From IMG/VR virus record IMGVR_UViG_3300025087_000313, positions 1-22,326 of that record: a stretch of 22,326 nt of DNA; one strand, 5' to 3'. Origin of the DNA: a virus. Shown piece by piece: positions 2,092 through 15,588 of this stretch; the stretch's first letter is position 1; every line of letters begins with the position of its first letter. The position numbers and the translations under genes are program-made. The notes under the pieces are model-generated. The model did no database searches. It saw only the letters and a list, made by a program, of their open reading frames with translations, and was not told where the DNA came from.

Positions 2092-2827
2092 TTTGTTCTT
2101 CAAGAGTCGCCGATAAAAATGTGACTATGTCTTCAAAGTTATTCTCGACGAGTTCCAACTTTGTTATTTTCTTTACAGCCGCCTTGCAGGTATCGGCGGT
2201 TTCAGTGTCTTCACCAAGAGCCTTGAGGAGTGCCATGATTTTCATCTTCGGGCTTGCTGGTAACTTTGGCTTTGTTTTCTCAAGTCGAGCATCTTGGTCT
2301 TCGTCTGCAACCATAATACCGAATAAATTACAAAGTGTGTATCGCTTGAGGTACGTGATGGTGATTGCAGTTTTCTGAGGGGCGCTATTTGCTTTCGTTC
2401 CCTCTGCAATTTCTGAAACCATTGATGATGTGTCGGTGTGCCCGTTGATGTGTGTTGCTTTACACACGACCTCGATTGACTTCTCGCTCATTGAAGTATC
2501 CCAACTATATGTGAAGCCCTGCTTACGGATTAACTCCTTGCACTGTGCGACAATGTCCTCGAGTGGTGCATAGTTGCTGTTCGTTCCGCCATTTTTCTTC
2601 AGTTTCTTGACTGTTGGTATTTCTGACTGGAGTGTCGACATCGACTTAATGTACTCCGCCTTTGCCTGATTCGCTTGAAAGCGTTCTTGTAGTGACATGA
2701 GTTTCTCAAGTACTTCTACGTTTGCGCCGCTCGCGATGGCTGTCATAATCATGGCCTGTGGGGAGCTTGGATCAACCTGTAGAGCTGTTTGCTCTTGTGT
2801 TACCACCAATTCTTTTTCTTGTGTCAT
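2078..2827 (-). CDS. erf: Erf-family single-strand annealing recombinase
   Basis: A 249-residue protein of the ERF superfamily (P22 Erf type), which anneals complementary ssDNA during phage recombination and genome circularisation. The ERF core runs from about residue 45 to 175. It includes the KSMSTLQSEIPTVKK region, NYAPLEDI, then GFTYSW, and a closing TAITITYLKRYTLCNLFGI segment, which is the family's conserved aromatic and Arg/Tyr-rich end, followed by acidic DEDQDA. The C-terminal ~60 residues are a helical tail. I start at the ATG at 2827, 4 nt after the stop of the preceding small gene; a TTG at 2842 would overlap it. It is coupled to the downstream YqaJ exonuclease. Confidence 0.9.
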   Translation of the reverse strand: MTQEKELVVTQEQTALQVDPSSPQAMIMTAIASGANVEVLEKLMSLQERFQANQAKAEYIKSMSTLQSEIPTVKKLKKNGGTNSNYAPLEDIVAQCKELIRKQGFTYSWDTSMSEKSIEVVCKATHINGHTDTSSMVSEIAEGTKANSAPQKTAITITYLKRYTLCNLFGIMVADEDQDARLEKTKPKLPASPKMKIMALLKALGEDTETADTCKAAVKKITKLELVENNFEDIVTFLSATLEEQNANN

Positions 2828-2831
2828 ATAT

Positions 2832-3026
2832 TTATTCTTCAATTTCTACCAAAGCGTCAACCATCTCTTGTAAATTCTCTTGCATACCATCAGGCATCAA
2901 TCCTTCTTCTGAAAGTGCGTAGTTACGCATGAGTTCTCGTCCGTTGATGAAGAGGACTATTTGTACTGTTTTGATTTTCATAATTAACTCACCTGTTTCA
3001 AACTCTGTGAATATTGAATCTGGCAT
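2832..3026 (-). CDS. Unrecognised 64-residue protein upstream of Erf
   Basis: The small protein has a hydrophobic beta-like middle (KTVQIVLFINGRELMRNYAL) and an acidic helical C-terminus ending VEIEE. The ATG at 3026 lies 1 nt after the TAG of the upstream gene and its stop is 4 nt before the Erf ATG, so it appears translationally coupled on both sides. An internal ATG at residue 16 (MKIKTVQ) is an alternative start. I do not recognise the family. Its position suggests an early accessory role. Confidence 0.65.
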   Translation of the reverse strand: MPDSIFTEFETGELIMKIKTVQIVLFINGRELMRNYALSEEGLMPDGMQENLQEMVDALVEIEE

Positions 3027-3027
3027 A

Positions 3028-3168
3028 CTACTTCTTATAATTATCCATTAAAAATTGCACTGTTGCTTCCATGCTCGGTAGTCGTTCTTTTGCTTTAAGA
3101 ATTTGTAACTCTTGTAGCAATAGAACTGACTGGAACCTGATGCGTCCTTCTTTATTTTTTATCTGCAT
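3028..3168 (-). CDS. Unrecognised 46-residue helical protein
   Basis: A short ORF reading MQIKNKEGRIRFQSVLLLQE at its N-terminus and ending in DNYKK. It is Leu/Lys/Glu-rich and probably helical. Support for it being real comes from packing: its TAG is separated by a single base from the ATG of the following gene, and its own start lies directly beside a dyad-symmetric site at 3173-3198. It is the first gene after the 63-nt gap that splits the leftward operon, so it may be the first cistron of a sub-operon holding Erf. No function is assigned. Confidence 0.55.
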   Translation of the reverse strand: MQIKNKEGRIRFQSVLLLQELQILKAKERLPSMEATVQFLMDNYKK

Positions 3169-3172
3169 AGTC

Positions 3173-3198
3173 GTAGTGTAGCACATGTGGCACACTAC
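3173..3198. promoter_or_regulatory. 26-bp dyad, candidate operator
   Basis: The site is an inverted repeat with arms GTAGTGT and ACACTAC around a core CACATGTG palindrome; only two base pairs on each side break the symmetry. It lies just upstream of the ATG at 3168 on the minus strand. A TATATT hexamer (4 bp farther upstream on that strand, plus-strand 3202-3207) could be a -10 box, with only a poor -35. This layout fits a repressor operator over a transcription start, or an mRNA hairpin between cistrons. Confidence 0.5.
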
Positions 3199-3231
3199 AC
3201 AATATAGACAATAGATATTCTTGTGGTGTAA

Positions 3232-3411
3232 TTATACCTCTGAGTATTCTTTCTTTAATCCTTTTAACATATAAAGGATTGCTACATCCGCTCTAATAGA
3301 AAATGTTTCTTTATCGCCAAATTCAAAGTGAAGTATTATATCGCTTGAATGCAGTTGACCAATATCACCGTACTGTATTGAGTTGTCCCGTATCGTTATT
3401 TCTTTTCTCAT
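3232..3411 (-). CDS. Unrecognised 59-residue protein after the helicase loader
   Basis: The ORF starts at an ATG 2 nt beyond the stop of the DnaC-like gene. The product begins MRKEITIRDNSIQYGD, has a beta-rich middle (DIILHFEFGDKETFSI) and a helical end (ADVAILYMLKGLKKEYSEV). Coding-like amino acid composition and tight packing support it. I do not recognise the family. After it comes a 63-nt non-coding gap containing the candidate operator at 3173-3198. Confidence 0.6.
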   Translation of the reverse strand: MRKEITIRDNSIQYGDIGQLHSSDIILHFEFGDKETFSIRADVAILYMLKGLKKEYSEV

Positions 3412-3413
3412 TT

Positions 3414-3941
3414 TTATAATCGTTTATCACTACCTTCGAGACGGACAACATCACACATTCCGATAATTCTTGAAGTGATGCGTTCACCAAGACGTTCAGA
3501 CAATTCATCTGGCGAAAGGTTCGATGTGAAGATTGTCGGGAGCATTTCATTGTATCGGTGATTCAGTAAAAGATAGAACTCAGAAATTACCCACTCACTT
3601 AATTTCTCTGCACCTATATCGTCGATAAAAAGAAGTTTTCTACTCTGCACCAATTCTTCCATTGGATGTTCTTTATCTTTCCGATCAAAATCTTTTTTCA
3701 TTTCTGAGAAAAGCTCTGATGCGTTTATAAAAATACCTCTGTGAATTTTATGTACTTCGTCACCAACCTTTCTTTCTTTTGTGTAGTAATTATGCAATGA
3801 ATAAGCAATGTGAGTTTTACCCGTGCCCACTGAACCGTGGATATAAATACCACGACGTGTCTCTCTTATTTTATCAAAGCAGGCCTTCACGTTTTCAGGG
3901 ACATCATCATATTTTGCGTCTTTGTATCGTGGTGGTGTCAT
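3414..3941 (-). CDS. DnaC/IstB-like AAA+ helicase loader
   Basis: This 175-residue AAA+ ATPase is expected to load the replicative DnaB helicase at the phage origin. Walker A is GSVGTGKT (residues 36-43), Walker B is KLLFIDDIG (102-110), sensor 1 is TSN (139-141), and the arginine-finger region GERITSR is at about 152-158. It is shorter than E. coli DnaC (about 245 residues): the N-terminal helicase-binding domain is reduced to about 30 residues. Its ATG overlaps the TGA of the replication initiator gene in an ATGA junction, the usual initiator-loader pair in phages. No helicase gene lies in the window, so the loader probably recruits the host DnaB, or a phage helicase encoded elsewhere. Confidence 0.88.
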   Translation of the reverse strand: MTPPRYKDAKYDDVPENVKACFDKIRETRRGIYIHGSVGTGKTHIAYSLHNYYTKERKVGDEVHKIHRGIFINASELFSEMKKDFDRKDKEHPMEELVQSRKLLFIDDIGAEKLSEWVISEFYLLLNHRYNEMLPTIFTSNLSPDELSERLGERITSRIIGMCDVVRLEGSDKRL

Positions 3942-4750
3942 ACGTTTATTTTGATAGTTTTAATGTTTGCGTATTTTCCAGGAGTGGCTTGGATTCCAAG
4001 TGCCCCCGGCTTCTTCCGCGGCGGAATAATATCGTCTTCCCACTGTCGATTTTTGATGTAACGCTCAGGGTCTTTTACGAATCCATTTACCCACTTGTCG
4101 TCGAGTTTACGTTTTGGTACGTCAAGCATGATTGCAGCTCGGTCTTCTGCGGTTATTTTTTTCCATTCAACGAAGGCCTTTTTCTTTGCTGTATGTTTTG
4201 GATAGATTTTCCAAAATTCTTCGAAGTCCTCGGGGTATTCTTTATCCTTACCTATACTTACCTTACCTATCCTTACCTTACCTATCCTAAGTGCACGACT
4301 CGTTGACGTTACGTGCACGTGATTTTCTCCTTGTTTTTCAACGTTTTCTGAAATAAGCGTATCAAGTTGGAAGTGTCCGCTTGGGACAGGAATTGCAACA
4401 CCACTACTATTAAGCGAGTACGAACCATTCGGTCTTATATACAGCGTTTGTTTGTGGTTGAGGTATTTTGTCTCAGTGTATATATCCTTTCGGATGTAGT
4501 TGTTAATTCGCCAATGCTTAATAACCACCACGCCGTCTTCAAACGAAATGATAAACTTCTTCATTACGAGAAGTTTTATATCGTCACCTTGTGAGCCGAT
4601 ATCTCGCATCACTCTCTTTGGGTTTGCAATGAAACCGTCATCATCTGCACGGGCGTTAAGATGAAAATATAAGAGCTGAGCACTTTGAGGCATGTCTAGA
4701 AACGCATCAGTATCGATGACGTCTAGACTTGTCATTCTACGTTGAGCCAT
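3938..4750 (-). CDS. Phage replication initiator with N-terminal winged helix
   Basis: A 270-residue protein of the phage replisome-organiser type. The N-terminal ~110 residues match the typical domain: TDAFLDMPQSAQLLYFHLNA, then RADDDGFIANPKR, then LLVMKKFIISFEDGVVVIKHW and NNYIRKDIY. A variable linker follows with three RIGKV-like repeats (near residue 155-170). The C-terminal domain starts YPEDFEEFWKIYPKHTAKK and includes WKKITAEDR and PERYIKNRQWEDD, as in DnaD-related primosome proteins. It is the first gene of the leftward operon, after a structured leader, and overlaps the DnaC-like gene by 4 nt. It should bind the phage origin and recruit the loader. Confidence 0.85.
   Translation of the reverse strand: MAQRRMTSLDVIDTDAFLDMPQSAQLLYFHLNARADDDGFIANPKRVMRDIGSQGDDIKLLVMKKFIISFEDGVVVIKHWRINNYIRKDIYTETKYLNHKQTLYIRPNGSYSLNSSGVAIPVPSGHFQLDTLISENVEKQGENHVHVTSTSRALRIGKVRIGKVSIGKDKEYPEDFEEFWKIYPKHTAKKKAFVEWKKITAEDRAAIMLDVPKRKLDDKWVNGFVKDPERYIKNRQWEDDIIPPRKKPGALGIQATPGKYANIKTIKINV
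4246..4290 (-). repeat. Three 15-bp tandem repeats in the initiator linker
   Basis: On the plus strand three units in a row read CCTTACCTATACTTA, CCTTACCTATCCTTA and CCTTACCTATCCTAA. On the coding strand they give RIGKV, RIGKV and SIGKD-type pentapeptides. The unit is a multiple of 3, so copy number can change without a frameshift. Similar short Lys/Gly/Arg repeats occur in the linker of many phage replication proteins. Confidence 0.85.
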
Positions 4751-4767
4751 ATTTTATATAAATAAAA

Positions 4768-4851
4768 CCCTCTATTCAGTAAGCGAGCATTGCGTGTCGG
4801 TGCTTTCCTTCACCGATGGGCATGTAGCCCGCTCTCTTACTAAATACAGGG
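4768..4851 (-). ncRNA. Structured 5' leader of the leftward early mRNA
   Basis: A 21-nt arm at 4768-4788 pairs with 4831-4851 at 18 of 21 positions. Enclosed are two perfect small hairpins: TCGGTG/CACCGA (4797-4802 with 4811-4816) and GGGC/GCCC (4818-4821 with 4827-4830), giving a three-way-junction shape. On the minus strand the outer stem is followed by UUUUAUUUAU and then the initiator ATG at 4750, so it could act as an attenuator or partial terminator. It starts about 10 nt after the start expected from the promoter at 4868-4896. I do not recognise it as a known riboswitch. Confidence 0.55.
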
Positions 4852-4867
4852 TTGTAGTAACGGAAAG

Positions 4868-4896
4868 TTTATAACATTTTATTGGTTCGCGCGCAA
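4868..4896 (-). promoter_or_regulatory. Leftward early promoter with extended -10
   Basis: Read on the minus strand, TTGCGC (4896-4891) and TATAAA (4873-4868) are separated by exactly 17 bp. The bases before the -10 are TGT, giving an extended TGnTATAAA. Transcription would start near 4861, producing a ~110-nt leader that holds the stem-loop at 4768-4851 before the initiator gene. Confidence 0.55.
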
Positions 4897-4914
4897 CTAC
4901 TAACCAACTCCACA

Positions 4915-4943
4915 ATTTTACACCCACTTCAAAAATAACACAA
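4915..4943 (-). promoter_or_regulatory. Second leftward promoter candidate
   Basis: On the minus strand, TTGTGT (4943-4938) and TAAAAT (4920-4915) are 17 bp apart. The -10 box sits inside a 12-base sequence that is repeated, inverted, at the rightward promoter. It would be tandem to the promoter at 4868-4896 and give a leader of about 160 nt. Confidence 0.45.
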
Positions 4944-4951
4944 CCCCATAG

Positions 4952-4968
4952 TTATCCACAGGTGTGGA
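4952..4968. promoter_or_regulatory. Consensus DnaA box within a palindrome
   Basis: TTATCCACA at 4952-4960 is a perfect DnaA box. It is followed after GG by TGTGGACAT (4963-4971), which on the other strand matches 7 of 9 positions, so two boxes face each other with a TCCACA-GG-TGTGGA core. It lies between the divergent promoters, next to the rightward -35. It may mark a replication origin or host DnaA control of the switch. Confidence 0.6.
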
Positions 4969-4970
4969 CA

Positions 4971-4999
4971 TTGCATGAATTCTGTTATGGGTGTAAAAT
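4971..4999 (+). promoter_or_regulatory. Rightward promoter, predicted leaderless
   Basis: TTGCAT (4971-4976), 17 bp, then TAAAAT (4994-4999). The ATG of the KH-domain gene at 5006 begins only 6 nt after the -10, so transcription should start at or within a base or two of the A of ATG. The same 6-nt spacing recurs at 11977-11989 and 14158-14170. Confidence 0.6.
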
Positions 5000-5005
5000 A
5001 CTGAC

Positions 5006-5251
5006 ATGGAAACAGTAGATTTTGTTAAAGCGGTAGTCAGTCCACTACTTGAACACCCCGACGATTTTGTTATCACAGAAACAAAAGACGACCGAGGTAT
5101 TCTTTTAGTTCTCTCCTGCCACCCAGAAGATATGGGTATGATTATTGGTAAAAGTGGCAAAACGGCAGATGCAATTCGCCTGCTTGCACGTATTATTGGA
5201 GTTAAAAATAATGCTCACGTAGGCATTAAAATTACTGACCCTAGAAAATAA
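5006..5251 (+). CDS. khpA-like: KhpA-like single KH-domain RNA-binding protein
   Basis: An 81-residue protein that is almost entirely one type II KH domain. The RNA-binding GxxG loop is GKSG at residues 48-51, within GMIIGKSGKTADAIRLLARI, the signature of the KhpA (YlqC) family. A three-stranded sheet precedes it (DDFVITETKDDRGILLVLSC). Length matches bacterial KhpA (about 75-80 residues), which acts with KhpB as an RNA chaperone in Gram-positive and related bacteria. It is the first gene of the rightward operon and its ATG lies 6 nt from a -10 box. A phage copy could redirect host RNA control or steer late phage mRNA; this is inference. The family call is strong, the role is open. Confidence 0.88.
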   Translation: METVDFVKAVVSPLLEHPDDFVITETKDDRGILLVLSCHPEDMGMIIGKSGKTADAIRLLARIIGVKNNAHVGIKITDPRK

Positions 5252-5255
5252 CTAT

Positions 5256-5459
5256 ATGGAAAATAAAGAAGAAGTAGACGCACGAGTAAAAGAGTTTACG
5301 GAAGGTTATAAGAATCTCGTAGAAAAGCATAAGATTGATTATGCAAATGTACCGACCTTCATCCCCGATGGACAAGGTGCATTCAAATTGATCGTACAGA
5401 ACTACCCAGTTGATATTTCTCAGCGACCGACAGAAAGCCCATTCATTCCAAAAGCATAA
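5256..5459 (+). CDS. Unrecognised 67-residue protein
   Basis: The protein begins MENKEEVDARVKEFTEGYKN, a charged helix, and ends in an extended Pro-rich part (YPVDISQRPTESPFIPKA). The ATG is 4 nt after the KH gene stop with no Shine-Dalgarno. No domain, membrane helix or metal motif is seen. The next gene begins 1 nt after its stop, so it belongs to the same operon. Confidence 0.7.
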   Translation: MENKEEVDARVKEFTEGYKNLVEKHKIDYANVPTFIPDGQGAFKLIVQNYPVDISQRPTESPFIPKA

Positions 5460-5460
5460 T

Positions 5461-5583
5461 ATGAAACTCGCCGATATATTCGGTAAAACCGAAAAAGAAA
5501 CCTACGAAAAACCTGTAGGTAAAGCAACAATAGTTCAAGATGAACCATTATCAGCATTTGATGAATTTGAAAATGAAACTTAA
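5461..5583 (+). CDS. Unrecognised 40-residue acidic protein
   Basis: The short ORF starts 1 nt after the preceding stop and encodes MKLADIFGKTEKETYEKPVG followed by an acidic end (DEPLSAFDEFENET). Its 3' end overlaps the GroES-like gene by 11 nt. Packing between genes and an acidic, protein-like composition support it. No function can be given. Confidence 0.5.
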   Translation: MKLADIFGKTEKETYEKPVGKATIVQDEPLSAFDEFENET

Positions 5584-5830
5584 ACCAGTCAATAATCATA
5601 TTTTGATTGAACCCGTAGCAAGAGAAGCATTTATGGCATCTCATACAGAAACATTCCAAGAAATTGGAGTGGTTATTGCTGTGCCTGACGAATTTACTGG
5701 AATTAAAATTGGAGATAAAGTATTCTTCGATTCATGGCTTGCCGCTAAATATCCCGCAGAGAATACAGACGGGTATTATTGGTTGGTAAAATGGGAAGAT
5801 ATACGCGCCTATGTCCCGCTATCAGAATAG
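5573..5830 (+). CDS. groES-like: GroES-like co-chaperonin
   Basis: The 85-residue product has the cpn10 order: an opening strand (MKLKPVNNHILIEPVA; GroES-type K-P-x-x-x-x-V/I-L), a mobile-loop region at ~17-30, GVVIAVPDE (32-40), then GIKIGDKVFFD (43-53; cf. G-x-K-V-G-D-x-V in GroES), and a closing YYWLVKWEDIRAYV (68-81). E. coli GroES has 97 residues; the shortening is mostly in the mobile loop. It should cap the GroEL ring encoded 200 nt downstream. I use the ATG at 5573; an upstream in-frame ATG at 5540 would extend it by 11 residues into the previous gene. T4 gp31 is the classic phage co-chaperonin. Confidence 0.82.
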   Translation: MKLKPVNNHILIEPVAREAFMASHTETFQEIGVVIAVPDEFTGIKIGDKVFFDSWLAAKYPAENTDGYYWLVKWEDIRAYVPLSE

Positions 5831-6032
5831 CCTTTGTAGAAACGGCTACCTACACGATTACCGCCTTGTTTCTCAGACTCACAAAGGAATGCTAGAGCGT
5901 TGCACTCGTTGCGGTAAACAATTACACATATCAAGCGATATGCCAAACCATGTGTTCTTAAGTCACCATATTCGTTCTGCGTTACAGAAGAATGACCCAT
6001 TATTCAAAAGGGAGTACCCCGATATTAAATAA
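5811..6032 (+). CDS. Small Cys/His protein between GroES and GroEL
   Basis: A 73-residue protein with Cys9, His15, His24 and a CxxC at residues 31-34 (ERCTRCGKQLHI), which suggests a single zinc site. The remainder is polar and helical (HHIRSALQKNDPLFKREYPD). The gene overlaps the end of the GroES-like gene by 20 nt and stops 3 nt before GroEL, so it is inside the chaperonin cluster. It could be an adaptor or a small nucleic-acid-binding protein. I do not recognise the family. Confidence 0.7.
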   Translation: MSRYQNSLCRNGYLHDYRLVSQTHKGMLERCTRCGKQLHISSDMPNHVFLSHHIRSALQKNDPLFKREYPDIK

Positions 6033-6035
6033 ATT

Positions 6036-7559
6036 ATGTTGAAAAACGACAATCTGCATTTTGATGCACAAGATAAACTTTACTCAGGAATCAAGAAAAT
6101 CGCCACAGCTGTTGGAAGTACTATGGGTACGGCTGGAGGAAACGTTATTATTGAGGCAATTGAAACTCCTGGATACCTCGCAACAAACGACGGATTCAGT
6201 ATTGCAAACAGCATCATCCTTGCCGACCCCACAGAAGACCTTGGACGACGAATCCTTCTTGAATCAATAAACCGTGCCAACAAGCAGTCTGGCGACGGAT
6301 CAAGTACTACATGCGTTGTTACCGCTGCAGTCCTTGAAAATGGACGCTCACGAATTGGTAGTGCTCGTCCAATGGAAATTAAGAGAAGCCTTGAAGAATG
6401 TTTACCGTTGGTAATAGAATCAATCAATTCACAAAAGATTGACGTTACTGTAGAAGATATCCATCAAGTAGCATCAATCAGTGCTGAAGATGTCAATATC
6501 GGTAATAGAATTGGAGAGATTTACAAGGAGATTGGTAAAAAAGGAATAATCCACTGGGATATTTCAAAGACAGCGGAAGACCATCATGTTATAGGCTCAG
6601 GTATTACTGTTGAAGGTGCTGGATATTATAGCCCTTACATGTGCGATGCTTCTGAATCAGGGCAGTCAACAAATCAGGTTCGTATCAAGAATCCAAAGAT
6701 TCTTATTACAAAGCAAAAGATTTCAAGTGCCGAAGAACTAGGCGGAATCTCTGGTGCTCTCTTTTCACAAGAAGTACGAGATCTTGTAGTATTCTGCGAC
6801 GATATCGACCCACTTACAATCTCTGATATTATCAAAACACGAGCAGTCCGTGGTTTCCGCATTGTTATTGTAAAAATGCCAGTAATGTGGAAGGATTGGT
6901 GGTTTGAAGATATTGCGAAGGCGACAGGCGCATCAATTGTTGATGTAAATGCAGGACTCTCAATGAAGCAGGTTAAGATTGAGCACCTAGGAACAGTTGG
7001 AGACATCATAATTACAAAAGACGAAACACACCTTGATGGTATTCGTGACTTAAGTTCATACATTTCTTCACTCACTGAAGATAACACTGACGATGGTCTT
7101 CTTCGAGCAAGCCGTCTCAACACAAAGACAGCACGTTACTTCGTAGGTGCACCAAGTGAAAGTGCCCTTAGCTATCGTCGCCTAAAGGTTGAAGATGCAA
7201 TCAGCGCTGCATATCAAGCTCTCAATGGTGGAATTGTAGCAGGTGGAGGCGTAGCGCTTCTACAGGCATCAAAGACACTCCCACAAACTATAGGTGGAGA
7301 CATTCTGCGTGAAGCACTCAAAGCTCCTACTCTACAGATTCTATCAAACGCAGGTATTGAATCGACTAACATTGATTCACTAGAATCAAATATGGGATAC
7401 GACAGCCGTACAGGAGAAGTTGTAGACATGGTTAAAGAAGGCATCATCGACCCCGCAAACATTGTTATCAACGCCGTAAAGAATTCAATAAGTGTATCAG
7501 CAACAGTATTGACCGCACCCACACTTGTTATGCTTCCGATGGACGAATCTCAAATATAA
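6036..7559 (+). CDS. groEL: Phage-encoded GroEL chaperonin (divergent, full length)
   Basis: A 507-residue group I chaperonin subunit (host GroEL is about 545). Nucleotide-site landmarks are kept: TMGTAGGNV at 29-37 for the P-loop (usually LGPKGRNV), ATNDG with Asp52, GDGSSTT with Asp88 (family GDGTTTA), and VEDA plus GGIVAGGGVALL near residues 385-405. The apical domain is recognisable (GAGYYSPYM, KDWWFEDIAKATGA, VGDIIITKDETHLDG). The usual GFGDRR is replaced by VMWKDWW and the C-terminal Gly/Met tail is absent. It follows a GroES-like gene and precedes terminase, portal and capsid genes, so folding of capsid proteins is a likely job. It retains the ATPase residues and probably is active. 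Confidence 0.93.
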   Translation: MLKNDNLHFDAQDKLYSGIKKIATAVGSTMGTAGGNVIIEAIETPGYLATNDGFSIANSIILADPTEDLGRRILLESINRANKQSGDGSSTTCVVTAAVLENGRSRIGSARPMEIKRSLEECLPLVIESINSQKIDVTVEDIHQVASISAEDVNIGNRIGEIYKEIGKKGIIHWDISKTAEDHHVIGSGITVEGAGYYSPYMCDASESGQSTNQVRIKNPKILITKQKISSAEELGGISGALFSQEVRDLVVFCDDIDPLTISDIIKTRAVRGFRIVIVKMPVMWKDWWFEDIAKATGASIVDVNAGLSMKQVKIEHLGTVGDIIITKDETHLDGIRDLSSYISSLTEDNTDDGLLRASRLNTKTARYFVGAPSESALSYRRLKVEDAISAAYQALNGGIVAGGGVALLQASKTLPQTIGGDILREALKAPTLQILSNAGIESTNIDSLESNMGYDSRTGEVVDMVKEGIIDPANIVINAVKNSISVSATVLTAPTLVMLPMDESQI

Positions 7560-7564
7560 TAATT

Positions 7565-7747
7565 ATGAAACACTTCAGTATTCGGGGTATTTGCCGAGGT
7601 TGTAGAAAAATGAAATGGTTCGTCCGTAAAAGAAACATTACCCTACCAATCGGACAGGTTGCAGAGTCAAAAGACTTATTCTGTACAACATGTTACAATA
7701 AATTACAAGGAGTATTAAATCAACATGAAGAAAAATTCTACGATTGA
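7565..7747 (+). CDS. Small four-cysteine zinc-ribbon protein
   Basis: The 60-residue protein has CRGC at residues 10-13 and CTTC at 40-43, giving a C2-C2 zinc ribbon, and basic residues between them (KMKWFVRKR). This suggests a small nucleic-acid-binding or regulatory protein. It starts 5 nt after GroEL and overlaps the next gene by 23 nt. The family is not recognised. Confidence 0.7.
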   Translation: MKHFSIRGICRGCRKMKWFVRKRNITLPIGQVAESKDLFCTTCYNKLQGVLNQHEEKFYD

Positions 7748-7911: not shown

Positions 7912-8319
7912 ATGGAAATGCTCACAAAACAAGAAAAGAGATTTGTTGCTGAGGTGGCTGAGCATGGAAATAAGACACTTGCAGCACAAACTGCTTTTGG
8001 TATAAAGGATACAAACTACGCAAGTGTGAAGTCCGTTAGATTGCTAGGTAAAGATAGGATTGTCAATGCTATACAGGATGCATTATCAGATGAACTATTG
8101 TTGCAAGTTCATCTTGAAGGATTGCAAGCGATGAAGGAAGAGCCCACAGCTGACAAAGAAGGGAAGCCAGATTACGCAGTACGTCACAAATACTTAGACA
8201 GCGCATACAAACTCAAAGGTTCATTCGCACCAGACAAACACGTCAATCTAAACCTAACCGCAGACGTTCCAAACGAGAAACTTAAAAAGCTCGCTGACAA
8301 ACTAAATGGCAGAGGATAA
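7912..8319 (+). CDS. terS: Terminase small subunit
   Basis: A 135-residue DNA-recognition subunit of the packaging motor. The N-terminus MLTKQEKRFVAEVAEHGNKT followed by AAQTAFG and NYASVKSVRLLGKDRIVNAI has the helix-turn-helix layout of small terminases, which find the packaging site. The central helix (DELLLQVHLEGLQAMKE) would form the oligomer. The C-terminus contains a linker (LNLTADVPNEK) that probably binds the large subunit. The large terminase starts inside its last 14 nt, and this adjacency strongly supports the call. Confidence 0.82.
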   Translation: MEMLTKQEKRFVAEVAEHGNKTLAAQTAFGIKDTNYASVKSVRLLGKDRIVNAIQDALSDELLLQVHLEGLQAMKEEPTADKEGKPDYAVRHKYLDSAYKLKGSFAPDKHVNLNLTADVPNEKLKKLADKLNGRG

Positions 8320-10030
8320 AATCATAATTGACGGTGAAGAGTATACCAACGAAGAGGTTGCACAGGCGGCAAACCTCTTTCCGTACACATGGATTATTCA
8401 GAATGAGATAAAGAACGAAACAGGTACACCAATAGACTTTGATAAGCGTCCTTGGCAGAAAGACATATACAACGACCTATCACCACATCAAGTTCTGTTG
8501 AAACCTCCACAGATTGGAGCAACAGTAATGAATACCTTGAAGTCTCTATGGGTAGCTAAGAACCTTGGTAGACAGATTATTTATACCCTCCCAACAATGG
8601 GAGACGTTCAAGTTATGGTTGGAGGTTCGTTCAACCGTATCATTGCCCAGAATCCAATACTCATGTCATGGGTAAAGGACAAAGACACTGTTGAGCAGAA
8701 GACTGTTGGTAACAGTATGATATTCTACCGCGGTACATGGAGTAACAAACAAGCGATGATGGTTCCGTCAGGTCTAAACATCCACGACGAAGTAGACGCA
8801 AGTGACCCTGAAGTTATCACACAATACGAAACACGCCTGCAAGCTCAAGATGATGGAGGCTGGCGGTGGTACTTCTCTCATCCAAGTCTCGTAGGGCATG
8901 GCGTAGATGTATACTGGCAACAGAGCGACATGAAGGAGTGGTACATCACATGTCCTCACTGTGAACACTCTCAAACTCTCTCATGGCCTGATAACATTGA
9001 TATCGAAACGCAAAAGTATATATGCCAGTCTTGTAAAGGAGAGCTTGAAACTTCTGACCGAATCAATGGAGAATGGAGGAATATTGACGGAGTACCATGG
9101 AGAGGTGAGATTGTGGGGGATTATGAATTCAGTGGATGGCATGTGTCACAGCTTATGCTACACAACAAGACCGCTGGAGATATCATACATGCATTCAACG
9201 ATCCACTAAAGAACCAGCAATACTTCTACAACTACGTTCTTGGACTACCATACGCAGACAGCGAAGACCGAGTTGACCATAATGTAGTCCTCAGAAACTG
9301 TGTTGATGTTGTGAATGACCAACAAGGAAGGACTATCATTGGAGCTGACACAGGTCATGGTATTCACTACGTCCTAATGAATAACCAAGGTGTGTTCTTC
9401 TATGACCACGAGCGTGAGATAACAGCCAGCAAAACACCATACGATGTTATCAAGGGATACCTTAAGCGATTCCCAAAATCTATCGCGGTATTCGACCAAG
9501 GTGGTGACCTTATCGGAGTTAGACAACTACAGCAAGAGTATCCAGGTAGAGTCTTCCTTTGTTTCTACACCAAAGACCGTAAGTCAATCGAGATGGTTGA
9601 ATGGGGTAAAGATGATGAGTATTGGAAAGTCCGTGTTGATAGAAACAGAATGATGACACTCGTCATGGAGCAGATACGAGACATTGGACGCATTCGCCTC
9701 AATGGAACACCTGACGAATGGAGAGATTTCGCGAATATGTTTGACAACATTCACCGTGAAAAGATTATGGTGAAGGAAACACGCGGCAAGGATAACCGTG
9801 AGCTGTACGGAGCCGAGTATGTATGGAAACGGACGGGGCACGATCACTATTGTCACGCACTGCTCTATGCTATTGTAGGTTTACAAAGATTTGGAGGAGG
9901 AGAAGCAGCGCGTGTTATAGATACTGCACGCGACGCAATACCGAACGCAAACATAATCACACCTGAGAAGCTCACAAGTCCTCTAGGATTTCGAGCAAGG
10001 GATTTCGCAAATGAAAATTTAGTGGTATAG
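8306..10030 (+). CDS. terL: Terminase large subunit, GpA type
   Basis: A 574-residue ATPase and nuclease that cuts and packages phage DNA. The deviant Walker A is KPPQIGAT (residues 66-73), with its Lys at the start of the loop as in lambda gpA. Walker B is in LNIHDEVDASD near residue 158. A zinc ribbon, CPHC then CQSC, lies near residues 216-243, again typical of the GpA family. The nuclease domain starts with IIGADTGHGIHYVL (near 345), has FDQGGDL near 395, and a late DHYCHALLYA near 511, giving the acidic metal ligands. It overlaps terS by 14 nt. GpA-type enzymes often, but not always, make cohesive ends. Confidence 0.93.
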   Translation: MAEDKIIIDGEEYTNEEVAQAANLFPYTWIIQNEIKNETGTPIDFDKRPWQKDIYNDLSPHQVLLKPPQIGATVMNTLKSLWVAKNLGRQIIYTLPTMGDVQVMVGGSFNRIIAQNPILMSWVKDKDTVEQKTVGNSMIFYRGTWSNKQAMMVPSGLNIHDEVDASDPEVITQYETRLQAQDDGGWRWYFSHPSLVGHGVDVYWQQSDMKEWYITCPHCEHSQTLSWPDNIDIETQKYICQSCKGELETSDRINGEWRNIDGVPWRGEIVGDYEFSGWHVSQLMLHNKTAGDIIHAFNDPLKNQQYFYNYVLGLPYADSEDRVDHNVVLRNCVDVVNDQQGRTIIGADTGHGIHYVLMNNQGVFFYDHEREITASKTPYDVIKGYLKRFPKSIAVFDQGGDLIGVRQLQQEYPGRVFLCFYTKDRKSIEMVEWGKDDEYWKVRVDRNRMMTLVMEQIRDIGRIRLNGTPDEWRDFANMFDNIHREKIMVKETRGKDNRELYGAEYVWKRTGHDHYCHALLYAIVGLQRFGGGEAARVIDTARDAIPNANIITPEKLTSPLGFRARDFANENLVV

Positions 10031-10072: not shown

Positions 10073-11953
10073 ATGAACGAGACAGACCCATTTGCTCTCA
10101 ATGTACGTGGAGCAACAGATTTGGTTGAGAACCAAACAAACAAGATACGTACTCGTGGAGGAGAGTCACCAGAGGGGCTTTCTGGAGAGAAAACAGATTC
10201 TCTCGATTTAAACATGTCTGATGAAGAACTTATAAAGCTCAAGAACGAGTGGGAAAATAACTACGCAGGTTACGAGGGGAAGATGAAGACGATATGGGAG
10301 CGAAACCTTGAAAGTTATCTCGGAAAGAAGAAGGACGGGCAATGGTTAAACCCTGAAGGTCCGAGTGCTGCGAATCTTCAATTCGAGGCAGAGGAGACAT
10401 TCTTGTCGGCTGCACTCAGTAAGAATCCTGAGCCTGTTGTTTGGTCTGACAATACTCCTGAAGGGAACGAGATTTCATCAAGTGTGAAAACCATGCTCGC
10501 CTTCCACTCCGACCAGCTTGTACTTCGCCGTAAGCTCGCATTCATGGTACGACAGTGGTCTATCTATCACCTTGGTGTACTTAAGTTTGGTTGGAATGCA
10601 GAGATTGGAGACGTGGCCGTAGAGAACAGACGTATCCAGAACTTTGTGTTTGACCCCGAAGGATACGTAGATGCTTACGGAGATTATATAGGCTACGTTG
10701 GTGAACGCATTGATGTCACAGCTGAGAAGCTTGTAGGTATGTTCCCGAAGTGTAAAGAATACGTGCAAAACGAGACAGATGGTAAGTATGGCACAAAAGT
10801 AACATACACCGAATGGTGGTCTGCTGACAGTACATTTACATTCAAAACATACAAAGGGAAGGTTCTGGAAAAGAATAAGAATCCATATTTCAATCATCCT
10901 GAGGCTGATGTAAACCCAATGACGGGCGATTCTGAAGTAGATGAACTTGGAGAGGAAGTGATGATAGCACCGCGCAACCACTTCGCGATGGCAAAGAAGC
11001 CATATGTGTTCCTTAGTGTATTTAGTCTACAGCAACAGCCTCATGACATCACAGGTCTTATCGAGCAGAACATAGCTAACCAGAAGAAAATAACTGACCG
11101 TAGTGAACAGATTGATTACAACGTCGGTTCTGCAAATAATGGCTATGCGTTCAGTGAAGACAACTTCAACCAAGAAACAGCCAAGCAAGCAGCGAACGCT
11201 AGACGTCGCGGTAATCCAATTCTAATCCCAAGTGGCGGTCCTATAGCGAATGCTATCATGCCACTACCAGCACAGAGCCTTCCGCAATCAGTATTCAATG
11301 AGGTTGAGATAGCAAAGAACGACCTGCGTCAAAGCTGGGGAGTTCAAGGTATATCTGTGCAACCTCATGATGAGGACGCAACAGCGCGAGGTCTTATCAT
11401 CAATCAATCGAACGACTCTAGCCGTATTGGTGGAGGAATTGGAGATGCTATTGAACAAGTTGCTGATAATACATTCAATTGGCTCGTACAGCTCTATTAT
11501 GTTTTCTATGATGAACAGCATTTCGCTGTAATCATGGGAAGTGCTAAGGCTGTCGAGTACGTTACTCTACAGTCGAGCGACATGGATAGACAGGTGATTG
11601 TAAGCGTAAGCCCAGACAGTCTTAAGCCAAAGGATGAAGTAACTCAGATAAACCTTGCACAAGCACTATTTGATAAGGGAGCAATCGGTCCGAAGACACT
11701 GCTTAAAATGCTTGACTTCCCTGACCCCGACCAAGCAGCTGCGGATGGTATCTTGTACAAAACAGACCCCATGGCATACATGATGTTGAACTTCCCTGAG
11801 ATGGCACAACAGTTACAATCCTCACAGCAACAAGCAATGATGCAAGCATCACCACAAGGAATGGCACCAGAAGGAATAACTGAGCCAGCACCTCAAATAA
11901 GTCAAGATTCCGCAAGCGCTGCATTAAGTAACGTACCTATTCCATCACTGTAG
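10073..11953 (+). CDS. Portal protein
   Basis: A 626-residue protein placed between terminase and scaffold, as portals normally are. The N-terminal ~50 residues are disordered and polar. The core includes SAANLQFEAEETFLSAALSK, WSIYHLGVLKFGWN and NRRIQNFVFDPEGY, a stretch common to portals of the P22-like and related families, and later LRQSWGVQGISVQ. The C-terminus is Gln/Met/Pro-rich (AQQLQSSQQQ), like a portal barrel or tail extension. It forms the 12-subunit ring for DNA entry and exit and binds TerL. The ATG follows a 42-nt gap with no Shine-Dalgarno. Confidence 0.85.
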   Translation: MNETDPFALNVRGATDLVENQTNKIRTRGGESPEGLSGEKTDSLDLNMSDEELIKLKNEWENNYAGYEGKMKTIWERNLESYLGKKKDGQWLNPEGPSAANLQFEAEETFLSAALSKNPEPVVWSDNTPEGNEISSSVKTMLAFHSDQLVLRRKLAFMVRQWSIYHLGVLKFGWNAEIGDVAVENRRIQNFVFDPEGYVDAYGDYIGYVGERIDVTAEKLVGMFPKCKEYVQNETDGKYGTKVTYTEWWSADSTFTFKTYKGKVLEKNKNPYFNHPEADVNPMTGDSEVDELGEEVMIAPRNHFAMAKKPYVFLSVFSLQQQPHDITGLIEQNIANQKKITDRSEQIDYNVGSANNGYAFSEDNFNQETAKQAANARRRGNPILIPSGGPIANAIMPLPAQSLPQSVFNEVEIAKNDLRQSWGVQGISVQPHDEDATARGLIINQSNDSSRIGGGIGDAIEQVADNTFNWLVQLYYVFYDEQHFAVIMGSAKAVEYVTLQSSDMDRQVIVSVSPDSLKPKDEVTQINLAQALFDKGAIGPKTLLKMLDFPDPDQAAADGILYKTDPMAYMMLNFPEMAQQLQSSQQQAMMQASPQGMAPEGITEPAPQISQDSASAALSNVPIPSL

Positions 11954-13009: not shown

Positions 13010-15588
13010 ATGGCACCAGGTGTAAATATTACCACTACCACCAACCAGTATTTGGCTCCGTTAGCCTAACCCAAAGCGGCAATTAGTTGATTTATTATTA
13101 AAAGGCGCTAAGATATGGTTTATGTCACATAGTGAAGAAACCAAAATAAAAATATCTAACGCACTGAAAGGTCACAAACACTCTGAAGAAACCCTCGCAA
13201 AACTTCGTGGAAGTAAAAGGAGTGACGAGTTTCGCAAAAAGATGAGTGAAATTGCTAGAAATCGTATACCTTGGAACAAAGGAAAGAAATTAGGAAATTT
13301 ATTTCCTAATTCTGGACAGTTTGTAAAGGGTAGTAAGCGTTCTAAGGAATCTATCGAAAAACAAAGGACTTCAATGATAGGTATAAAACGTACTTCGTCT
13401 GAAATAGAGAAGAATAGACAAAGTCAATATCGTAGATTTGAAAAAGAAATAGATGGATATAGTTATGAAGATAACGGTCGTAGGAACAGAAGAAAGATAC
13501 GACTTATTAAAAATGGAGGTCATCATTCAATAAAAGAATGGAACGACTTGAAGGAAACTCATAACTTTACCTGTAAAATATGCCAACTCAAAGAACCTTA
13601 CATACGATTAACAAAAGACCATATAGTTCCAGTTTCTAAAGGAGGTAGCGACGATATAACAAATATCCAACCTCTCTGTAGGAAATGTAATTCTATAAAA
13701 TCAACAAAACTAATTGAAAATCGAGTGAACTCAGGGGAAGTCCAGAACGGATAATCCTGACCCGAGCGTGCATCTAAAAGGTGCACGAAGGAGCAACGAC
13801 TAGGTAGTGAAACTCTAACGAGAATATAATCTACCCACGAGCGCTCGACACCGAAAGGTGATGATATAGTCTGAACACTATAGGAATATAGTGAAGTGGT
13901 AATTAAAAAAGCCACGATAACAAAATTGTTTGGGTAGACCAAGTGCTTCGTGACAACTACTTCTTCGGCAAACTAATGCAGAAGACCAAGAAGTACGAAG
14001 GAAGTCAGATGCTTATCCCTAAACTATTTAGTTTCGCTTGGTAAGCGACTTCATGGGGATATAAAATCAGTTCTAATATACGGCGAAACTCCCACCTGCG
14101 CTTTGCGTAAATGGACAACGCCTACCAAGCACATTGACAGATATAATAGGAATGACATATAATGTAGTCATGGAAGATTACATTTATATGGCAGGTTTCT
14201 TTGATGGTGAAGGATGTATACGTATTAACAAACGGGTAAGACCAGTTAGTATTGAGTATTCTTTGTTTATCTCACTTGGGCAGAAAGACGGTGCCTGTAT
14301 GGACTGGTTAGTCAGTACATTTGGAGGACACGTCCATAAAGTCAAGAGAGATAACTCATTTATCTGGATAGTGAGCAATAAAAAAGCTCACGAGTTTCTA
14401 GAAAAAGTAATTCCGTATTTGAAGTACAAGAAACCACAAGCCCTAGCTGCTTTACAACTCGCTAATGGTAAAAGAACAAGAGTTCTTTCGCCAGAAGAAT
14501 TAGCAAGACGAGAAAGCATATATCTAGAAATAAAAAGACTTAAACATGTCTTTGAACAACCAATGTTCGCAGGTACAACGACTAAACGAATTGACCCGAA
14601 AGGGATGTAATAGTCTGAACACGGCAGGAATGTCGTGAGGAGAGGTCGGATAGAGTAAGCAACTATCCCTCGGAAGAATTTCTCCCTAGTAACAAGCTTG
14701 ATGAAATACCAGAAGGGTACCGCATCAGTAGCATTCAATGGCTACGACCTTCTCCCAATCTCTCAACAGCCGACGAGCGTCAACATGACTTTTTATCCAA
14801 CATTCATCGCAACAAACGTTTCTCTTGCAGGTACAGACCTTTCGGTCAACGCAACCGCAATGCAAACACTTAAGTTGCTTGCTGTTGAAATGGAAAGCCG
14901 TAAGCAGGATGCCGCAGACGACGTTGGTAACTTCCTCCAGGGTGACGGTACGTCATTCGGTGGAAAGGCTCCGAACGGTCTTGCAAACACTATCGACAAC
15001 GGTACTGTCGCAGCAAACTACGGTGGACTTAGCCGTGCAACATACAGTGGTCTTAACGCTACTGTTACAGCATCAGGCGGTACAATCTCACTCGTAAAGG
15101 TACGTACTCTTTGGAATGCAATCTCAGACGGTCCAGTAGTTCCAGACTTCATTGTAACAGACTACACAACATGGGCTTACTTTGAACAGCTCCAGACTCC
15201 ATTCCAGCGCAACACTGCTGACTTCGGTCGTGACAGTGGACGTGTAGCATCTACTTCAGGTTACAGCGAACAGATGTGGGATGGTATGATTATCAGCCGT
15301 GACAAGAAGGTAACTACTGGTTACTTCTACATGCTCAACATGAAGGACACCCTCGATTGGTACGGTCTTAAGTGGTGGGAAGGTGAACGTGTCTCTCCAA
15401 AGGCAAAGGATATCCAAGGAAACGTATATGAAAACAATCTATACGCTCCAGGTGATGCCTTTACATGGACAGGTATGATTAAGGCTTACAATCAGGGTAC
15501 TATCAACGGCTTCATGATTCTCGGTGGACAGATGATTTGTAAGGCTCCGTTCCGTAACGGAGTGCTTACGGGAATTACTGGTGTGTAA
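13010..15588 (+). CDS. Major capsid protein, three exons split by two group I introns
   Basis: Exons are 13010-13061, 13929-14020 and 14701-15588: join gives 1032 nt and 343 residues. Exon 1 reads MAPGVNITTTTNQYLAP and would stop at a TAA (13067-13069) inside the intron if not spliced. Codon TTT is formed across junction 1 (APF-WVDQVLRDNYFFGKL), and junction 2 falls between codons (SQMLIP-MKYQKGTASVAF). The body (DLLPISQQPTSVNMTFYP, later RTLWNAISDGPVVPDFIVTD) suits the HK97-like capsid shell protein that follows portal and scaffold genes. Automatic callers would start it at 14698 or 14701 and lose 48 N-terminal residues. The ATG at 13010 is preceded by AT-rich sequence without a Shine-Dalgarno. 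Family assignment rests on position and length as much as on motifs. Confidence 0.85.
13062..13928 (+). mobile_element. Group I intron 1 in the capsid gene (867 nt)
   Basis: P1: exon CCGT (13058-13061) pairs with GCGG (13076-13079), with the required U-G at the 5' splice site. P10: CCCAAA (13070-13075) pairs perfectly with exon 2 start TTTGGG (13929-13934). The intron ends in G (13928). P7: GACTA (13798-13802) with TAGTC (13867-13871). P8: CACC-GAAA-GGTG (13849-13860). P9: CACTATA-GGAA-TATAGTG (13876-13893). Stems between P7 and P8 (around 13804-13834) suggest P7.1/P7.2-type insertions as in subgroup IA. It carries an HNH endonuclease ORF. Confidence 0.92.
13122..13754 (+). CDS. NUMOD3-HNH homing endonuclease in intron 1
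   Basis: A 210-residue intron-encoded endonuclease. Residues ~2-90 carry at least three NUMOD3 DNA-binding repeats (HSEETKIKISNALKG, HSEETLAKLRG, SDEFRKKMSEIARN, and a weaker one at SKESIEKQRTSM). The C-terminal HNH domain has C151 and C154, then KDHIVPVSKGG with Asp166-His167, Asn181, and CRKCN at 186-190. It would cut intronless capsid alleles to spread the intron. A weak promoter, TTGATT-N16-TAAGAT, ends 7 nt before its ATG. The structure appears intact. Confidence 0.93.
   Translation: MSHSEETKIKISNALKGHKHSEETLAKLRGSKRSDEFRKKMSEIARNRIPWNKGKKLGNLFPNSGQFVKGSKRSKESIEKQRTSMIGIKRTSSEIEKNRQSQYRRFEKEIDGYSYEDNGRRNRRKIRLIKNGGHHSIKEWNDLKETHNFTCKICQLKEPYIRLTKDHIVPVSKGGSDDITNIQPLCRKCNSIKSTKLIENRVNSGEVQNG
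14134..14163 (+). promoter_or_regulatory. Consensus sigma70 promoter inside intron 2
   Basis: Perfect TTGACA (14134-14139), 18 bp, perfect TATAAT (14158-14163). The endonuclease ATG at 14170 is 6 nt downstream. It would make the LAGLIDADG gene independent of capsid transcription. The TTG of the -35 box is in frame with the endonuclease and is a false start. Confidence 0.7.
14170..14610 (+). CDS. LAGLIDADG homing endonuclease in intron 2
   Basis: A 146-residue protein. The single LAGLIDADG helix is YMAGFFDGEGCIRI at residues 6-19, with acidic D12 and E14 near the catalytic position. The rest contains DNA-contact beta strands (EYSLFISLGQKDGACMDWL, HKVKRDNSFIWIVSN) and a helical end. One motif means it should act as a homodimer. 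I start at the ATG at 14170 because of the promoter spacing; ATG 14152 and TTG 14134 are alternatives. Its stop overlaps the intron core between P8 and P7. It would target capsid genes lacking intron 2. Confidence 0.9.
   Translation: MEDYIYMAGFFDGEGCIRINKRVRPVSIEYSLFISLGQKDGACMDWLVSTFGGHVHKVKRDNSFIWIVSNKKAHEFLEKVIPYLKYKKPQALAALQLANGKRTRVLSPEELARRESIYLEIKRLKHVFEQPMFAGTTTKRIDPKGM

Follow-up and report, generated by a model that had tools for sequence, protein, structure and literature searches.

KhpA is a widespread and little understood RNA-binding protein of bacteria. Its gene usually lies next to rpsP, and often before trmD, a location that is not needed for membership of the family. The protein (YlqC; PF13083) has a KH domain in common with KhpB (EloR, Jag). 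Passages of PMC6403258 report that KhpA binds KhpB/EloR in the pneumococcus and that the pair controls elongation, that both the KhpA homodimer and its heterodimer with EloR hinge on residue 61, and that a GDDG loop abolishes RNA binding. According to passages of PMC12456014, KhpA of Bacillus is an RNA binder in vivo whose contacts are predicted to be K52, R55, R61, and K74. Phage-encoded GroES and GroEL are also of a known kind, and 203 INPHARED records match the GroEL of the phage described here. One phage of Tunturiibacter, an acidobacterium, encodes a KhpA-family protein. This protein, gp147 of the 308-kb phage Tunturi_5 (PP885688; L092, 4986-5258), matches PF13083 at 53.6 bits, is annotated as hypothetical, and is 29% identical to the KhpA described here; the 20 features listed in its surroundings, hypothetical with few exceptions, include no chaperonin. 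When INPHARED was searched with KhpA, 13 records matched and Tunturi_5 was the sole record with an annotated ORF at the match; the Listeria, Enterococcus, and unverified faecal matches are probably host DNA in phage preparations. Moreover, two Caudovirales proteins in BFVD (A0A6J5PF67 and A0A6J5S5E0) have predicted folds resembling our model (TM over query 0.83 and 0.78), a likeness by predicted fold at 9-16% identity, with only A0A6J5PF67 below E 0.001. No paper describing a phage-encoded KhpA was recognized among the titles and abstract openings listed in searches of open-licence PMC. Whereas KhpA and phage chaperonins are known already, the recurrent set of viral KhpAs in a chaperonin/packaging block reported below appears to be new. 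It represents an apparently recurrent gene, so far unnoticed, in viruses that probably infect tiny, mostly uncultured bacteria.

A true KhpA encoded by a tailed phage

The window (the whole stretch of DNA that was analyzed) is 22,326 bases long, makes up one virus record, and encodes TerL, a portal, and a capsid protein. A protein identical to its KhpA was found in 5 further viral contigs. Because the longest of these, G001 (38,768 bases), starts and ends within window sequence and has a terminal overlap of 132/133 bases, it most likely represents the whole of a circularly permuted genome about 38.6 kb in size; IMG/VR classes it as linear. In the longer of their two-way aligned segments (18,650 bases), the identity between the window and G001 is 99.6%. 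The features around khpA are as follows:

4751-5005, no strand: divergent intergenic region separating the leftward replication block from khpA, with TAAAAT at 4994-4999
5006-5251, plus strand: khpA, 81 aa, a single KH-II domain (ATG start, PF13083, AlphaFold2 model)
5147-5158, plus strand: GKSG RNA-binding loop, residues 48-51 (from sequence)
5256-5459, plus strand: 67-aa protein, 41% identity in the related phage L278, no Pfam or PHROG match
5461-5583, plus strand: 40-aa ORF (from sequence), no PHROG match
5573-5830, plus strand: GroES-like co-chaperonin (Cpn10 at 21.4 bits, barely over the cut-off of 21.1; phrog_3188)
5811-6032, plus strand: 73-aa Cys-containing protein, 66% identity in L278
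6036-7559, plus strand: phage GroEL (phrog_5725, E 1.2e-85; PF00118)
7912-8319, plus strand: terminase small subunit, weak (PF03592 at 24.8 bits, under the cut-off of 26.1)
8306-10030, plus strand: terminase large subunit (phrog_675, E 4.9e-81)

The preliminary description had proposed a complete KhpA-like gene with an intact GKSG loop, and both points were confirmed. The protein matched PF13083 (KH_KhpA-B) at 69.5 bits (E 2.3e-19; Pfam cut-off 32.1 bits) over positions 2-73 of the 73-position profile. This was the sole Pfam domain seen in the 81 aa, and the protein, unlike KhpB, has one domain and no R3H. The AlphaFold2 model (pLDDT 90.6) comprises H3-14, E22-28, E31-37, H40-47, H49-67, and E72-77, the same H-E-E-H-H-E order that a passage of PMC6403258 gives for KhpA. 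Structural matches of this model in Foldseek (best E 7.2e-4; two matches with E <0.001) include Era, ribosomal protein S3, and KhpB (9lrg, 9lri), and a sequence search of the PDB at E 0.01 returned a single match, the KhpA fusion 7xqc. Residues K49, K52, and R58 occupy the positions of Bacillus K52, R55, and R61, and H71 replaces K74, leaving three of the four predicted contacts. L60, which inspection of the Bacillus alignment by eye placed at the pneumococcal dimer position I61, is hydrophobic. The protein scored 51.7 bits against the NCBIfam equivalog (cut-off 106), a test that is uninformative here because the KhpA of Bacillus velezensis also misses (75.2 bits); four Patescibacteria KhpAs that were tested likewise fell below the equivalog cut-offs. 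These combined data show that positions 5006-5251 encode a true KhpA of a tailed phage. It resembles cellular KhpAs in its length, the order of its fold elements, the GxxG loop with R58, and a hydrophobic residue at the dimer position, but differs from them in being borne by a phage next to GroES/GroEL and terminase genes rather than rpsP, in having no KhpB in sight, and in its long branch. The absence of a KhpB-like partner, first noted for the window, also holds for the 38,768-base G001, in which one PF13083 gene and no R3H domain were found; no R3H was found in any of the 8 phage records searched.

Upstream of khpA, the earlier claim of a first rightward gene behind a divergent promoter was upheld in part. 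The gene is indeed the first of a rightward unit that also contains GroES, GroEL, terminase, and virion proteins: a DnaD-like leftward gene starts at 4750, leaving a gap of 255 bases, and AT skew is positive from the 1-kb bin holding the khpA start onwards. The promoter was not borne out, as a scan for the sigma-70 consensus upstream of khpA gave no plus-strand site. By eye, the TAAAAT lies six bases before the khpA ATG and would fit a leaderless message, and the khpA message may be leaderless. No Shine-Dalgarno-like motif was found upstream of 23 of the 25 window genes (with mechanically assigned starts), a proportion that agrees with leaderless messages but is no proof of them, and we would guess that a protein opening 5′ ends would be useful to this phage. 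The intergenic region contains one DnaA box match, compared with 1.07 expected by chance. A stretch of 45 bases (4971-5015) was unchanged in 25 of 289 loci, all 25 of them from the window phage. In G001 (19,000-38,768; L101), the cumulative GC skew minimum and the change of AT skew sign fall at the divergent region before khpA, an origin-like signature.

Recurrence of viral KhpAs and their probable link to Patescibacteria

A KhpA-alignment scan of IMG/VR yielded 22 loci, 5 from the window phage and 17 from other contigs (31-50% identity). A phage GroEL adjoins KhpA in 11 of these 17 contigs, in a scan made without GroEL (L208 and L209 are copies); L203 and L211 end at KhpA, and their GroEL neighborhood cannot be judged, while the KhpA of L215 looks like a host gene. 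Phage copies of KhpA had initially been noted as not known to be common; the collection assembled here comprises, with L211 left out, 30 different viral KhpAs, so that the window protein is no isolated case. None of the five viral KhpAs scanned (that of the window and four others) matched a PHROG family, in contrast to the neighboring chaperonins in the window.

The pairing was then counted from the side of GroEL. A scan with the GroEL type of L201 gave 62 loci, some of them copies of one phage and some ending soon after GroEL; a scan with the window type gave 7 loci, five of which were the window phage. In the resulting 65 GroEL loci (the 62, one window copy, L278, and L279), KhpA was present in 26, on the same strand in all 26 (25 of 62 for the L201 type and 1 of 3 for the window type). 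Since the two types of GroEL are only 25-28% identical, the pairing with KhpA spans distant chaperonins. In the L201 type, KhpA lies 3 to 1031 bases after GroEL, whereas in the window it lies before GroES and GroEL. (The distance of 1909 obtained for L230 and L231 arose artificially from a long ORF called from stop to stop; it is 33 in L208, the same phage.)

Neighbors within 5 kb on the same strand were also counted for 32 distinct KhpA loci, 29 viral and 3 in Patescibacteria genomes. GroEL was found near 24 of them, a ParB-methylase near 25, TerS near 24, and TerL near 25; this set was partly selected via GroEL, and the 17 IMG/VR contigs are the fairer sample. Some of the terminase genes were themselves queries. 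Either TerS or TerL was found in 28 of the 32 loci, with L213 weakly supported: its TerS has no PHROG match and is backed solely by similarity to the window TerS at 1.6e-5, while the TerL of L103 does match a PHROG. The ParB-methylase of L201 and L285 combines PF02195 and PF01555 (phrog_498). Terminase without GroEL was found near KhpA in L285-L287 and L103; conversely, L254 has GroEL and the methylase near KhpA, with no terminase found. L206 is cut short. In the available sequence of L199 and L214, none of GroEL, ParB-methylase, or terminase was found near KhpA, which lies beside a peptidoglycan-binding gene in L199 and an endolysin-type gene in L214 (regions 2197-3840 and 5986-7576, respectively). 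Taken together, viral KhpAs are a recurrent set, located mostly in a chaperonin/packaging block.

The closest cellular KhpAs among the best 80 matches listed are from Patescibacteria, including Kaiserbacteria, Adlerbacteria, Peribacteria, Peregrinibacteria, and others, with best-segment identity up to 55%. When 11 Patescibacteria khpA loci were inspected by eye, 10 were found to follow an rpsP-type gene (the 11th, L118, ends there) and 7 to precede a trmD-type gene; Pfam confirmed S16 in L117, L120, and L123, and trmD in L117. The window khpA has phage genes as neighbors instead. Relatives of the window TerL were found in 5 of 379 Patescibacteria genomes (33-38% identity, one with an internal stop). 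All five genomes contain at least two KhpA-type matches, one of them linked to the terminase-bearing element; in G342, the start of the contig truncates the element-linked KhpA. In L285-L287, KhpA lies about 2.4-2.6 kb upstream of TerL. In G162 and G321 (contigs of 819 kb and 1.10 Mb), KhpA lies beside a capsid gene (SU10_MCP, phrog_1328), 12-14 kb from TerL, and the host khpA is elsewhere, next to S16. A search of the 379 genomes for the phage-type GroEL, which had no positive control, gave no match at 1e-110. On the basis of these relationships, the KhpA-carrying phages probably infect Patescibacteria, the host of the window phage being inferred from its relatives. The KhpA-chaperonin block could accordingly serve as a marker for phages probably infecting Patescibacteria, whose viruses are little known.

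As a separate observation, L285, L286, and L287 each show an island of KhpA, a 101-aa ORF, ParB-methylase, TerS, and TerL within a Patescibacteria genome. No portal was seen by eye among the ORFs listed after TerL, and the island would be a remnant or a packaging-gene satellite.

Sequence constraint and patchy distribution

Constraint was examined in an alignment of 31 viral rows, from which the partial L215 was excluded; L211, also partial, was dropped afterwards. G48, G51, and R58 are invariant in all 31 rows, and 29 rows have K or R at position 49. The loop reads G[K/R]xG in 29 rows (28 by pattern and L270 by eye), the exceptions being L214 and L103. The dimer position is L, I, or V in 30 rows and F in one. 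Just behind the loop, a basic residue occupies position 52 in only 8 of the 31 viral rows compared with 70 of 80 cellular ones; the window protein retains K52. Of eight pairs used to estimate dN/dS, four gave values (0.215, 0.101, 0.050, and 0.229, at dS of 0.14, 1.32, 3.22, and 1.34, respectively), three of which are rough because dS is high. The other four pairs were saturated, among them the only pair that includes the window KhpA, so the values pertain to other KhpAs.

The distribution of the gene is patchy. L278 has a GroEL 55% identical to that of the window and keeps the order 67-aa ORF, GroES, Cys protein, GroEL, but no KhpA was found before this block and no PF13083 anywhere in the 42.4-kb record. 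In total, 39 of the 65 GroEL loci have no KhpA in the available sequence, some of them ending soon after GroEL. Whole records were checked for 27 of these 39 and for 9 KhpA-positive loci: PF13083 was found in none of the former and exactly once in each of the latter. With none found in the sister phage L278 or in the available sequence of these 39 loci, phage KhpA is dispensable. On a GroEL tree built by a quick method from 53 loci, 19 of them with KhpA (the 12 others were too short or had less than 2 kb downstream), the presence of KhpA required 11 changes, and supported branches made 7 of these unavoidable. When the KhpA labels were shuffled, the mean was 15.4 changes, and a number as low as that observed was reached in 6 of 500 shuffles. 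KhpA thus behaves like an accessory gene that has undergone several gains or losses at approximately one place. A single clade of viral KhpAs (28 rows, without L092 and L103) was not rejected (p-AU 0.204), with 87 columns being too few to choose between one viral origin and several. The window KhpA has a long branch (1.64) and groups with Kaiserbacteria/Adlerbacteria-like KhpAs at a support of only 63/81.

Possible roles of the phage protein

The preliminary description had suggested that the phage KhpA may control host or phage mRNA, perhaps using the host's KhpB. The usual position in a chaperonin/packaging block suggests late expression. We favor, with a probability of about 0.5, the reading that the protein is a late phage RNA-binding protein or chaperone acting as a homodimer or with the host KhpB. 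Under this reading, khpA would be transcribed together with the late genes, its product would dimerize through the third helix, and the GKSG loop would bind single-stranded RNA. As an RNA chaperone, KhpA would preserve the translatability or stability of late phage messages, most of which lack Shine-Dalgarno motifs, and the phage chaperonin would fold the products of those messages. Host KhpB, where present, may also pair with the phage KhpA, which would add to the host KhpA rather than replace it. Family and fold, the retained key residues, the dN/dS values, the gene neighborhood, and the ties to Patescibacteria speak for this reading. Against it weigh the dispensability of the gene, the long branch of the window protein, the scarcity of a basic residue at position 52 in viral copies and the change to H71, the lysis-type neighbors in L199 and L214, and, for the host, TerL relatives of only 33-38% identity and the lack of a phage-type GroEL match in the 379 genomes. 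A phage copy under selection beside phage chaperonins points to KhpA being useful in infection, and the phage protein could offer a small system for finding KhpA targets. A broader and more tentative proposal is a mobile "folding kit" common to Patescibacteria phages, in which a viral KhpA lineage, open to gain or loss at one place and often changed at the residue behind the RNA loop, would be a dedicated late RNA chaperone accompanying the phage GroES/GroEL and would allow a phage that encodes no KhpB partner itself to run a large late program in tiny-genome hosts.

A less probable alternative is a host takeover, in which the phage protein would enter into a pair with host KhpB, or compete with it, and would alter host RNA regulation, for example of wall synthesis or division, instead of serving phage messages. 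Such a takeover would be in keeping with the pneumococcal KhpA-EloR pair and with the hydrophobic residue seen at the dimer position in every one of the 31 viral rows. R3H proteins were found in 10 of the 16 Patescibacteria genomes nearest by KhpA, and one each in G291 and G302, which carry an element-linked KhpA. Against it, no R3H protein was found in the Kaiserbacteria/Adlerbacteria-like drafts G120, G121, and G123 (the fourth, G122, has one, as do 9 of the other 12 relatives), nor in G342, which also has an element-linked KhpA. From these counts, a host KhpB partner is possible but not assured. The usual block position, suggesting late expression, also speaks against a takeover of the host.

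A role in packaging, in which the KH domain would serve the terminase or the genome (by acting on single strands where the genome is cut, or as a terminase cofactor), appears unlikely. The 28 of 32 loci with TerS or TerL within 5 kb, which include the weakly supported L213 and the GroEL-less L285-L287 and L103, would fit such a role, but the prophages of G162 and G321 have their KhpA by capsid genes, at 12-14 kb from TerL, and the KhpAs of L199 and L214 lie beside lysis-type genes. In addition, the family is known for RNA, and neighborhood within a late operon is weak evidence of function.

Still more doubtful is that khpA is a selfish or neutral passenger, picked up repeatedly and of little function for the phage. 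The 11 changes on the 53-locus tree, 7 of them forced, and the absence from L278 would suit a passenger; the dN/dS of 0.05-0.23 in the four estimable pairs, the retention of functional residues, and the similar position in most loci would not.

The window also contains an interrupted major capsid gene (13122-15588), in which capsid residues 18-48 match 13928-14020 and residues 49-341 match 14701-15585. The following features lie in the same region:

13122-13754: HNH gene
13626-13893: group I intron, 58.7 bits
14134-14610: LAGLIDADG gene

A second intervening sequence is implied between the two capsid exons. It is improbable that KhpA exists to help the capsid-gene intron or introns to fold and splice. 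The split gene invites the idea, as does the related phage L011, which has an uninterrupted capsid gene and no KhpA found in its 30.4-kb record. KhpA recurs in many phages, however, whereas an intron is known here in the window phage only. No intron over threshold was found in the KhpA-positive L201, L208, L210, and L212, by a scan that also missed the known L101 intron. Rfam gathering scans of the whole window and L101 likewise missed the group I intron, and a genome search for group I introns did not recover the known window intron that served as its positive control.

Finally, it is very improbable that the window khpA belongs to a host and lies at a prophage edge or on a contig wrongly called viral: such cases exist, as in L215 (3843-4294), where khpA beside a RimM fragment (PF01782), with tail-type genes directly before it (by eye), probably marks a prophage/host boundary with a host khpA, but the window gene lies inside an apparently complete phage genome, flanked by replication and chaperonin/packaging genes, with no rpsP-type neighbor and at most 55% identity to cellular KhpAs among the matches listed, so that its initial assignment to the phage holds and the prophage-edge reading is ruled out for this copy.

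Sequence differences within the window phage itself are concentrated in one gene: of the 83 that separate the window from G001, 82 fall in 10591-11458, inside the portal gene, in a pattern resembling a recombination tract.
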